Below, piece by piece: positions 40,178 to 44,319 of a stretch of 64,000 nucleotides of DNA. The DNA is taken from positions 124,001-188,000 of the forward strand of contig MGTT01000016.1 of assembly GCA_001799575.1 (NCBI GenBank), written 5' to 3'. The position numbers and the translations under genes were made by a program. The stretch comes from Elusimicrobia bacterium GWA2_56_46. Its GTDB lineage: Bacteria; Elusimicrobiota; Elusimicrobia; Elusimicrobiales; UBA9959. The notes under the pieces are model-generated. The model did not search any database and was not told the origin of the DNA. It worked only from the letters and a program-made list of their open reading frames with translations. Positions within the stretch are counted from its first letter, which is position 1, and every line of letters begins with the position of its first letter.

Positions 40178-40257
40178 AAGATCCGTAAATAGTCTAATGG
40201 ACGTGGTACCGGATGTCAAGGGCACTGAGTTCCCCAATCCTCCGCTAACAATGAAAA

Positions 40258-40377
40258 ATGGCGGCGGGCTGCAAGTGCGGGGGCCTGCCAGGGGGTGGCC
40301 TTTGCGCGTTCCCTCGGCGGCCTGTGGGGTCGCAAAGGCCACCCCCTGTCACCCCTCCAACTATACCCCGCCGCCAT
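40258..40377. repeat. Palindromic module A, outer stem ATGGCGGCGGG/CCCGCCGCCAT, inner stem GGGGGTGGCCTTTGCG/CGCAAAGGCCACCCCC
   Basis: Direct reading of stems. Confidence 0.85.
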
Positions 40378-40433
40378 CCTCCCTGTATAGAGCATTGCGG
40401 AAGCAGCCGTATCGGCGGGGAGCCCTTTGGCTC

Positions 40434-40661
40434 ATGCGGATATTTGAAATGGACAATAATGGTGGGCCATTATTTCAGGATCGCCTTGTGTTGTATCGTT
40501 ATTTTAACTACAGGCCGGCCTATTTTGAGGTGCCTCGGATATCCGAGATAAAAGAGTATATAGCAACCGACACCGAACGTAAGGTGGAAGTTCATTTCGC
40601 CTCTCCAGATGCCACATTGTTCAGTGTAAGGAACACCCTGCAATATCGCAAAGCCGGATAA
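40434..40661 (+). CDS. Small orphan ORF in the core of the candidate element (MRIFEMDNNGGPLFQDRLVLYRYFNYRPAYFEVPRISEIKEY..)
   Basis: ATG to TAA in the AT-richer core; coding-like but unverified. Confidence 0.35.
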   Translation: MRIFEMDNNGGPLFQDRLVLYRYFNYRPAYFEVPRISEIKEYIATDTERKVEVHFASPDATLFSVRNTLQYRKAG

Positions 40662-40735
40662 GTATATTATTGAGCATTGGAATCGTATAGGCACCACCAT
40701 CGAATGGTTTGGTTATTTCTATCTTATCTGGAAGG

Positions 40736-40874
40736 ATGGCGGCGGGGTATAACTGGAGGGGTGACAGCCATGGGTCGGATCGGGCCGGAGGGGAACCGGC
40801 GCGAAGTCGCCGGGCCCCGTAGGCCCGATGGGCCCCATGGCTGGCAGGCCCCCGAACCGGCAGCCCGCCGCCAT
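40736..40874. repeat. Palindromic module B (inverted relative to A), same outer stem, different inner stem CCATGGGTCGGATCGGGCC/GGCCCGATGGGCCCCATGG
   Basis: Direct reading of stems. Confidence 0.85.
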
Positions 40875-40953
40875 TTCTCCGCTTTCACCCAATGGATGAA
40901 ATCCTCTCATCAATGATGCAGGCTTGTTAGCGGAGGATCAGGGAAATTTTGCG

Positions 40954-43900
40954 CTATTTGGCTGTGAGTTCCAGTTCTGCGGTCTTTTCCAGGCCGTCGG
41001 AAAGGTACGTTATTTTTATTTTATCACCGGGGACGTGTTTGCCGAGTTCCCGCGAGTAGCTCCTCAGATCGTCCGTCGGGATCCCGTTGATCCTGGTCAC
41101 TACGTCTCCGGCTCTGAACTCCGTGGCCGATAAAGGAGACCCGGGGGCCACCGAGTCCGCCTTTACGCCTTTGCCCTGCCACTCAAAAGACGGGATCAGG
41201 CCGGTGGAGACGGTTCGTTTGTTTAGGGATGAGGGATGAGAGATGAGGGATGAAGGGGAACCGGGCGGTCTGGTTATTAAATCGCTGTCGCCGGCCAGGT
41301 AGTCTATTATTTCTTTCAGGAACTCGGCTTCTTTGACCATACCCGCATAATCCAGTTTCTCGGCCGTGTCGGAAAACTTGTGGTAATCCGCGTTGATACC
41401 GCTCAAAAGCTGAACCGCGGGTATGCCGGCTTCTATAAAACTCGCCTGGTCGCTTGAATCCAGGTTCTGGCGCGAGGCCTCGTAATCCAGGCCGGTCACA
41501 AAACCGGCGCCCCTCAGTATATGTGTCCATTTATCCGAAGAGCCGGAGTTGAGGAACAGCATTTTCCCGCCGTCCAGGCGGCCGACCGAATCCAGGTTTA
41601 TATCGGCGTTTATTTTCGCCGCCCTCCCGCCGCCGAGGTTTTTTATAAAGTGTCTGGAGCCGAGGCGGCCCCGCTCTTCTCCGTCAAAAGCGGCGAAGAC
41701 GATGGTCCGCGACGGGCGCCGCTTTGAATAATAACCGGCCAGTTCGAACAGCAGCGCGATCCCCGAGGCGTTGTCGTTAGCGCCAGGATAGACTTTGCCT
41801 TTCTCCGAGGGAAGGTGGTCGTAGTGGGCGCTGACGACGACATATTCATCTTTGCGGCCGGAACCTTCGATCACGCCGGCAAGGTTCCTGAGGGCGTGTC
41901 CATTCTCTTCCCATTCCTGCGCGAATCGTGTTCCCGCGAAGCCATCTTCAGGCGAAGCGGAACCGTCGAAAAACGGTTTCAGGCCGTATTCCAGGAACAT
42001 TTTGCCGATATGCCTGTAGGCCTTTTCCAGCCCCGTCTCGCCGGACCCGCGCCCCTCCAGTTCCGAAGCCAGATAAACGGCATGCGACTTCATCCTGTCG
42101 GCCGAGAAAACGGAAACCGGCGCGGCCAGCGGCTCGCGCGCGGGATATACCGGGGGTACGGCGTAAGGGCCCAGGGTCGCGGTGAGCGGGGCGCGGGGGT
42201 TGAGGCAGCCATTTTCAGCTTTCGTACACTGGCCGGAGGCCGAATTGTCCGGGTTCCAGCCGCCGGTCTTTACGGCGGCCATGCCGGCGTCGAAGACCAG
42301 GTAGCCGTATTTGCCGTAATGAGGCAGTTTGGCGGCCAGTTGACGGAGTTTTTCCGGCCGGTCGGTCAGGATCAGTCCGGCGGAATAAGCGGGATCGCCG
42401 GGATTGAAACCGGCGAACACCATTGTGGCGGCCGCGAACGGGAAGTCCTGATTGTCTACGACCGCTTTTTCCGGGCCCAGCCGGGCGCCCAGCCGCGCCA
42501 GGCCGCCGGCCAGTTCCGGATAAAATCTGTTTTCGTTTCCGAAGATCCATATCTGACGGTTCTTGGGCAGAGCGGAGAGTTCCGAATCTTTTCTGAGCTC
42601 CGGCGCATTCCCTTTATCGGCGGGCCAGGCCGCCGCGAAAGTTTCGTAAGCGCTGTACGTCCCGCTGGAGGCGGCGGCCGGCAGCACTAACAGCGGCCCG
42701 GCCGCGCCGAGCAGGCGGGAGAGCGTCGGCGGGGTTTCCAGCGGATCCAGTTTGCGGAAAAGATCGAATTCCGGGTCTACCGCGATGCGGGCCGGTTTCA
42801 CCATCGAGGAATATTTAAAGGATTCCTCTTTTTGGGTCACTATCAGAAGCGATTTGCGGGGGCGGCTTATATTCTCAAGCTGGATATAGACCGGCACTTC
42901 CAATTGGTAGGCCGGTCCGTCCTGAAGCTGCACGATCTCGAATTCAAGGCCGAAACCCTCCGCTTCCCTGGTGATCTTTACGTTCCTGAGGGCCAGTTCC
43001 GGGGCGCCCGGCAGGTCTACCCATTGATGGAAGAATTTATCCAGGCGGCCCTTTCCCGTCTGTTTTTCAAAAGAGCGTTTAAGGTCGTCGAAAGAGGCGC
43101 TCCTGAATTTATTTTCTCTGTAAAAATCCCGCAGGCCGGCCTTGAATTTAACGTCGCCCAGGCTGGTTCTGAGCATATGATAGAACATGAGCGACTTTCC
43201 ATAGCCTACGGCTTCGGAAGCCGGCGAGCGGCGGGACTGGAAACCGCGCAGGGGAAAATCTTTACCGGCGCGCACGTAATCCGCGTATTTCTGCAGGGCC
43301 GCCATGCGGTATTCAGCGCCTTTTCCGCGCCCCTCGCTTATCAGGTAATCGGCCAGGTAGGCGGTCAGGCCCTCGCACCAGTTGCCTTTTTCGTAATCCA
43401 CAAAAACCCCGTTGCCCCACCAGTTGTGCAGGATCTCGTGCGGATAGGAAGAATTGAGGATGAACGGGAAGCGGATGATCTTCGGCCCCAGCAGGGTGAA
43501 AGACGCGACGCCGTAGCCGGTTTCCCAGAAATTCTCCACCAGGGCGAATTTCCCGTAGGGATAGGGGCCGATGAGGCCGGCGTACATCTCCACATATTGC
43601 CGCGCGGCGGTCAGATATTTTTGCGCCAGGGCTTCGTCGGCTTCCCGCAGGAAGACCTGGAGTTCCGGTTTTTCCCCGTGATCCGCGTATTCCTTATATT
43701 TGCCGCAGGCGAGCGTTATTTCATCCTGCGGGACGGCCGCTTTCCAGACGGAGCGGGTACGCCCGTCTTTCACGACGCGGCCGGTACGGTCGCCGCCGGC
43801 CACGGACTCGTAGCCTTCAGGCAGGTCGGTTTCCAGTTTAAAGGAGGAAAGTTCGCCGTCGAACTCCGGATACCAGAAAGTGGAGCCGGAAAGATAGCAG

Positions 43901-44319
43901 CCCTCGGGGGAGATAAGACCCGGGGTCTCGGAAAAGCCGCGGGCGTAGTCTTCCTCCTGCGCCGCGGGCGGATGGGCTATCCTGCCGCCGTATTTTAATT
44001 TAAAGGTCTTTGTTCCTTTCGGCAGACTAAGCGAATATTTTTCGAAGACGTCCCAGGACGAAGAATAATTCACGGCATAGACGTCCCCAGGTTTTTCGGG
44101 AGGAAGAAGAGTCAGTGATGCGCCTTTGGTGAGAACTACGGGAGAGAGGCCCTTGTGAAGCGAGAAGATGAGCCCGGTTTTAGCCTCCGGCATTGTTATC
44201 GAGTCCTCCGCCTCCAGGAGGTTTTGTTCCGGCTCCAGTCTGAGCCTGATGTCGTGCCCCACCACTCCGGCGCCGGCGAACGGTGAAAATAAAAAAAGGA
44301 AAAGCGGCAATATTTTCAT
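40954..44319 (-). CDS. Fusion peptidase: M1-like aminopeptidase domain, M28 peptidase domain, C-terminal PDZ domain
   Basis: HEILHNWWGNGVFVDYEKGNWCEGLTAYLADYL (M1); VVSAHYDHLPSEKGKVYPGANDNASGIALLFELA and FAAFDGEERGRLGS (M28); VAPGSPLSATEFRAGDVVTRINGIPTDDLRS (PDZ). Confidence 0.87.
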   Translation of the reverse strand: MKILPLFLFLFSPFAGAGVVGHDIRLRLEPEQNLLEAEDSITMPEAKTGLIFSLHKGLSPVVLTKGASLTLLPPEKPGDVYAVNYSSSWDVFEKYSLSLPKGTKTFKLKYGGRIAHPPAAQEEDYARGFSETPGLISPEGCYLSGSTFWYPEFDGELSSFKLETDLPEGYESVAGGDRTGRVVKDGRTRSVWKAAVPQDEITLACGKYKEYADHGEKPELQVFLREADEALAQKYLTAARQYVEMYAGLIGPYPYGKFALVENFWETGYGVASFTLLGPKIIRFPFILNSSYPHEILHNWWGNGVFVDYEKGNWCEGLTAYLADYLISEGRGKGAEYRMAALQKYADYVRAGKDFPLRGFQSRRSPASEAVGYGKSLMFYHMLRTSLGDVKFKAGLRDFYRENKFRSASFDDLKRSFEKQTGKGRLDKFFHQWVDLPGAPELALRNVKITREAEGFGLEFEIVQLQDGPAYQLEVPVYIQLENISRPRKSLLIVTQKEESFKYSSMVKPARIAVDPEFDLFRKLDPLETPPTLSRLLGAAGPLLVLPAAASSGTYSAYETFAAAWPADKGNAPELRKDSELSALPKNRQIWIFGNENRFYPELAGGLARLGARLGPEKAVVDNQDFPFAAATMVFAGFNPGDPAYSAGLILTDRPEKLRQLAAKLPHYGKYGYLVFDAGMAAVKTGGWNPDNSASGQCTKAENGCLNPRAPLTATLGPYAVPPVYPAREPLAAPVSVFSADRMKSHAVYLASELEGRGSGETGLEKAYRHIGKMFLEYGLKPFFDGSASPEDGFAGTRFAQEWEENGHALRNLAGVIEGSGRKDEYVVVSAHYDHLPSEKGKVYPGANDNASGIALLFELAGYYSKRRPSRTIVFAAFDGEERGRLGSRHFIKNLGGGRAAKINADINLDSVGRLDGGKMLFLNSGSSDKWTHILRGAGFVTGLDYEASRQNLDSSDQASFIEAGIPAVQLLSGINADYHKFSDTAEKLDYAGMVKEAEFLKEIIDYLAGDSDLITRPPGSPSSLISHPSSLNKRTVSTGLIPSFEWQGKGVKADSVAPGSPLSATEFRAGDVVTRINGIPTDDLRSYSRELGKHVPGDKIKITYLSDGLEKTAELELTAK
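41225..41252. repeat. Heptad repeat AGGGATG AGGGATG AGAGATG AGGGATG inside the M1/M28/PDZ gene
   Basis: In-frame; encodes SSLISHPSSLN between the M28 and PDZ domains. Confidence 0.85.

Follow-up and report, generated by a model that had tools for sequence, protein, structure and literature searches.

A dispersed hairpin family with fixed boxes and rewritten stems in Elusimicrobia bacteria, and an apparent IS1380-derived element that carries it

We find that the palindromic modules A and B in the window, that is, the whole 64,000-nt stretch of Elusimicrobia bacterium GWA2_56_46 analysed here, are two inner types of a dispersed, previously unlisted hairpin family in Elusimicrobia bacteria. Both lie in a 716-bp element bounded by TIRs (40230-40945) that, judged from its sequence, derives from an IS1380-family insertion sequence and is non-autonomous and composite: a captured gene fragment is enclosed by two inverted mini-element ends, each of which has a TIR and a subterminal hairpin. 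The explanation that we consider probable has two layers, an IS1380 composite element and an independent structured-repeat family that it picked up and amplified. The features of the element are as follows.

40230-40251, plus strand: left TIR, TTCCCCAATCCTCCGCTAACAA; the family consensus is CCCAAATCCTCCGCTAA, and the same TIR is found on sister copies and on the autonomous insertion sequence.
40258-40377, plus strand: hairpin module A, its inner hairpin of J type and its outer frame ATGGCGGCGGG (G000:C16:164253-164382, E = 3.4e-33).
40269-40290, plus strand: box 1 of module A, CTGCAAGTGCGGGGGCCTGCCA, near-invariant across 92 modules.
40291-40346, plus strand: inner hairpin of A, with arms 40291-40306 and 40331-40346 perfectly paired (16/16).
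40347-40366, plus strand: box 2 of module A, TGTCACCCCTCCAACTATAC, near-invariant across 92 modules.
40373-40419, minus strand: remnant of the inner end (E) of a 278-bp mini-element (E- 26-72 at C16:164373-164419, 89%).
40434-40661, plus strand: captured gene fragment, a 75-codon open frame.
40736-40874, minus strand: hairpin module B, with an I-type inner hairpin, inverted relative to A; arms 40768-40786 and 40822-40840 (16/19).
40871-40922, minus strand: subterminal H segment, with the small palindrome TTTCACCC..GGGTGAAA.
40924-40945, minus strand: right TIR, TTGTTAGCGGAGGATCAGGGAA.

The two modules lie where the preliminary description had placed them, and the pairing it reported for the inner arms, perfect in A and 16/19 in B, is reproduced, as is the sharing of outer segments, which match in inverted orientation over 39 nt (90%) and 38 nt (92%). 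The TIRs form a third, outermost inverted pair around A and B and are 91% complementary. The inner hairpins had been called unrelated; their sequences do differ between A and B, but they are two recurring types, J (as in A) and I (as in B), each of which occurs within the same outer frame at other places as well. Among the I-type copies in IS1380 frames, many have a single inner sequence in common, and not every copy represents a new stem. The captured fragment has 57% amino acid identity to the cargo of a sister composite (C12:35607-35996) and a distant match to an open reading frame at C10:30494-30751; a Pfam search finds no domain in it. Directly beside the element, at 40954-44319, is a gene for a 1121-residue protein with M1 and M28 peptidase domains and a PDZ domain.

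A blast search of the host genome (2.66 Mb, 30 contigs) with the 726-bp window region gives 103 matches. Segment mapping with blastn shows the copies to run in the order TIR, H segment, outer frame L, inner hairpin and frame R, followed either by a short end E (278-bp form, C27:22012-22289) or by a longer middle, a second hairpin and an end D (620-710-bp forms). Exact 5-bp duplications abut the TIRs of three sister copies (TGCGC, C9; ATCTC, C15:96237; AATCA, C23), and this comparison of copies shows the family of IS1380-derived elements to have been mobile. The flanks of the window copy, gagtt and aaatt, do not retain an intact target duplication, and because of this we only infer that it has itself transposed. 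The same TIRs are tied to an IS1380-type DDE transposase in two other genomes. In G041, from the same family as the host, a 448-residue transposase (G041:C52; NF033539, 278 bits against a cut-off of 180; PF13701, 1e-50) sits between CCCAAATCCTCCGTTAAG and a module plus TIR, with the hairpin between the TIR and the start of the transposase gene; in the congener G001 (C44) an 87%-identical transposase is accompanied by the same module, the hairpin lying just upstream. The host genome keeps a 31-residue transposase remnant beside a 278-bp copy, and no complete IS1380 transposase of the G041 and G001 kind was found in it. An IS1380-family DDE transposase is the most likely enzyme to have moved the window copy; it would have bound the TIRs and acted in trans, leaving 5-bp target duplications.

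These features agree with what is known of the IS1380 family, of which ISEcp1 is a member that makes 5-bp target duplications and carries adjacent DNA along (PMC2887853): the transposase family (NF033539, PF13701), the TIRs, the carriage of adjacent DNA and, at the sister copies, a 5-bp duplication within the 4-5 bp of the family are shared, whereas the large GC-rich two-box hairpin between TIR and transposase sets the present elements apart from those of ISEcp1 type. Distant IS1380 relatives in the same Elusimicrobia have only a small TTTCACC..GGTGAAA hairpin at the place of the module, and a small hairpin similar to that of the H segment is found upstream of distant IS1380 transposases. Like bacterial MITEs, the 278-bp form in C27 and the 620-710-bp forms are short, TIR-bounded, multicopy and devoid of a transposase; unlike MITEs, they have a separate repeat family nested inside and occur in a composite form with a captured gene fragment. 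IS1272 (IS1182 family), with its stem-loop-replacing transposition, likewise represents a mobile element that interacts with inverted-repeat structures (PMC5678879), but its transposase belongs to another family and it makes no target duplication, in contrast to the 5-bp duplications of the sister copies here. We rate the module family as joining the known class of dispersed structured palindromic repeats, and the window element as a new non-autonomous member of the IS1380 family.

The preliminary description had suggested collecting copies with a covariance model. One built from 15 A-type modules has 34 places in the host genome, with E-values as low as 3e-33; of 101 genomes searched, 27 contain matches, and these fall in genera g1, g3, g4 and g11 of a single family. 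Named records that bear the motif come from Elusimicrobia MAGs. When all fetched DNA was scanned directly for the boxes together with P2 pairing, 93 distinct modules of 110-180 nt were collected, 56 of them from the host genome; the scan figures describe the set so collected, and the covariance search serves as an independent check. One of the 93, a Saccharibacteria pattern match (L121), was dropped as a chance hit inside a 271-codon open frame read as trmD, leaving 92. Viral contigs contain no match to two exact patterns, and Rfam returns no match above the gathering score, only hairpin-like miRNA or UTR models below threshold.

Two boxes, GTTCGGGGKCCTGYC and GNCACCCCTCC, are nearly unchanged across the family. 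Over the 92 modules box 1 is invariant or nearly so at GGGG and CCTG, as is box 2 over most of CACCCC, and entropy is near 0 in the boxes compared with 1-2 bits in stem columns. Inner arms come in 61 distinct sequences, with at least 10 of 12 pairs formed in 64 of 74 distinct arm pairs. Ungapped inspection reveals that the outer stem covaries too, with GGCGGCGGG, GCCGGCGG, TGCCGGGG and TGTCGGCGG each facing its own complement; of the conserved outer stems originally described, what recurs is the outer frame, but its near-invariant part is the flanking boxes, and the stem itself varies with covariation in other copies. In the J-type alignment two-sided changes occur in 14 of 33 pairs, a number that 0 of 500 shuffles reach, and 98.6% of cells pair compared with 87.1% after shuffling and 40-59% in slid structures; these shuffle figures are not probabilities, as the copies are related by descent and such controls overstate their independence. 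Type I has two-sided changes in 16 of 43 pairs. The breadth across genera is a stronger argument for covariation than the shuffle counts. In the rpsJ-ORF6N spacer of four species from two genera (G001, G002, G021 and G026) the box-like strands are kept while the stems are quite different, one of the four having an altered kernel helix; the spacer of G038 holds a diverged hairpin. The statement that structure is kept while sequence is replaced is in this way upheld, over 92 modules and with covariation controls. Two further observations concern the modules and their surroundings: the order rpsJ, long hairpin, ORF6N gene recurs in several genera (L117/L139, G002; L094, G001; L152, G021; L204, G026; L203, G038), and free-standing modules (for example L169, L182 and L139) have a conserved tail after the box 2 side, GACCCCGCCCATTTGACGATACAGC..TAAT.ACCCACCC, the complement of which contains four G-tracts.

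Quasi-palindrome correction is a known mutational process that makes two-sided changes, and template switching during replication, rewriting one arm of a palindrome from the other, could keep the arms complementary with no selection on structure at all. We regard this as quite unlikely, as the mismatched boxes, which should also have been corrected, persist across genera, and the mismatches that do occur are strand-biased. On the strand read from box 1 to box 2, distinct P2 mismatch contexts comprise 42 A.C and 14 G.U (P = 2e-4, uncorrected for relatedness of the copies), a bias of wobble mismatches of 3:1 toward one strand; since an A.C mismatch reads as G.U on the opposite strand, it is the complementary strand that tolerates wobble. 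Such tolerance is expected if one strand is the folded molecule under selection, which is probably the case, whether as RNA or as ssDNA. In a small kernel segment (GTT against ARY) wobble fits the opposite strand from P2.

Functional RNAs typically keep their loop strands and let their stems change, and modules directly precede ORF6N genes and the IS1380 transposase in a single orientation, both consistent with a structured RNA that acts in cis or in trans (a leader, insulator or small RNA) and happens to be spread by mobile elements. We hold this to be somewhat unlikely, given that Rfam has no match, that the strand favoured by P2 wobble is antisense to the ORF6N and transposase genes, that the ORF6N link may stem from duplication of one locus, and that the modules overall have no preferred position or orientation relative to genes. 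Most covariance-model matches are between genes and outside any IS1380 element, and a simple longest-ORF call places modules in 28 tandem forward, 16 tandem reverse, 19 convergent and 14 divergent gene pairs. One such module appears, by parsimony, to be a gain in the host lineage: the G000:C28 spacer from a rhomboid-like gene to the next gene measures ~370 bp with the module, compared with ~57 bp (G002), ~147 bp (G001) and ~60 bp (G003) at the equivalent junctions without it, and the stretch missing in these three congeners is ~310 bp with a single module. Inverted module pairs 1.2-1.6 kb apart were considered as transposon ends and rejected, the enclosed genes being unrelated and not transposase-like. 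Two other repeats were encountered beside modules or in the same loci: a hairpin, AAAGGTGCCAGGCTTATTTTTCAGCAGAAAAATGTGCCTGGCTCCTTTG, often directly adjacent to modules (L167, L168, L171, L174, L176, L117:1186-1232), and a separate ~190-bp repeat (L169:1165-1365; G000:C28:83164-83364) with ~20 copies, up to 93% identical, in the congener G002.

When the genes next to modules are clustered, the neighbours that both recur and have an evident identity are three: ORF6N, rpsJ and the IS1380 transposase. In module-bearing genomes 13 of 71 ORF6N domains have a module within 1 kb, compared with 0.35 expected, and the linked modules almost without exception point the same way and in most cases precede the gene. 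Part of this association reflects one inherited rpsJ locus and its tandem copies; several linked sites are this rpsJ-ORF6N locus or such copies, and we make no claim of ORF6N as the mobiliser. In the array of L151 (G026:C66:6008-9196) and L204, four ORF6N-domain genes stand in tandem as ~850-bp units of one orientation with two-box hairpins between them; the units remain alike in the C-terminal halves and the flanks but have diverged in the N-terminal and middle parts of the coding sequence. Upstream of ORF6N genes (for example L151, L201, L209 and L214), with or without a hairpin, we also find a CGACA..TGTCG palindrome followed ~17 nt later by a TATGCTAT-like box, a common sequence that looks like a promoter or operator.

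The preliminary description had likened the modules to integron attC sites. The likeness stands as logic, with conserved boxes around a variable palindromic middle that is probably read as one single strand, but not as membership, for the modules lack attC boxes, an integrase and a cassette array. As already recognised, the ends depart from the attC core: read off the sequence, RYYYAAC ... GTTRRRY is not found, and the nearest letters, CGCTAAC and GTTAGCG, do not fit. A reading in which a tyrosine recombinase acts on the modules as attC-type sites in folded single-stranded form, the inner hairpin being the variable terminal structure, would account for the conserved boxes flanking a self-complementary middle and for the strand bias of mismatches, and could draw on the tandem, one-orientation units of ORF6N gene plus module in G026:C66 and G002:C68. 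We consider it highly improbable. The box sequences differ from the attC R and L boxes, the paired outer stem continues beyond them, and the modules are mostly solitary and in all gene orientations, with no gene cassette array at the window; the tandem units look duplicated, being alike over nearly their whole length, as duplication would give. Integron integrase (TIGR02249) is absent above cut-off from the host genome, and among 41 genomes the only one above cut-off (L132, G007:C99:3711-4634, 410 bits) belongs to G007, which has no module matches.

REPINs, in which compensatory changes either side of the hairpin are reported to be common (PMC3116915), are the closest precedent for the evolutionary pattern of the modules. 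Both are hairpins scattered between genes, with ends that are conserved and a middle that changes in a compensatory way (PMC3116915). This likeness and the two RAYT-like genes of the host genome speak for mobilisation of a REPIN-like element by a Y1 (RAYT) transposase; we judge it very unlikely. Neither RAYT-like gene has a module within 1.5 kb, let alone flanking repeats, and the Y1 transposase or recombinase that the preliminary description had suggested might be linked to copies was not seen near modules. Moreover, G002 (18 model matches), G003, G032, G035, G041 and G051 all carry modules and have no Y1_Tnp match, an absence that is uncertain in draft genomes. Unlike REPINs, the modules are 110-180 nt long, contain a pair of boxes in an internal loop, vary in the stems to either side of these boxes and have no linked RAYT.

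We favour the two-layer explanation. Modules A and B would belong to a family of structured repeats that lie between genes in one Elusimicrobiota family and are independent of the IS1380 element, which picked them up and then amplified them. Each module would fold into an outer stem P1, a conserved asymmetric internal loop formed from the boxes GCTGCMRGTTCGGGGKCCTGYC and GNCACCCCTCCARYTATAC, and an inner stem P2 with its apical part; the boxes would be kept while compensatory changes accumulate in P1 and P2 and whole inner hairpins are exchanged. Given the kept boxes, the drifting paired stems and the 3:1 wobble bias, selection on one single-stranded fold, RNA or ssDNA, is the best explanation, and we infer recognition through the boxes, with a putative protein reading them as in REPINs. 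Free-standing copies occur in genomes without a linked recombinase or RAYT. A tentative and, in our view, unlikely reading is that the two-box hairpin is the recognition structure of its own mobile element class; some enzyme whose role as a mobiliser has so far escaped notice would propagate the folded single strand, as ssDNA or as an RNA copy, and IS1380 elements and the ORF6N loci would be secondary carriers. In the two-layer explanation an IS1380-family element would have acquired a structured repeat and spread it. The family offers a natural series in which the stems of a folding nucleic acid have been rewritten many times around two short fixed boxes, and which would separate, without mutagenesis, the features that a recogniser depends on, boxes and shape, from the stem sequence, to which it is indifferent.
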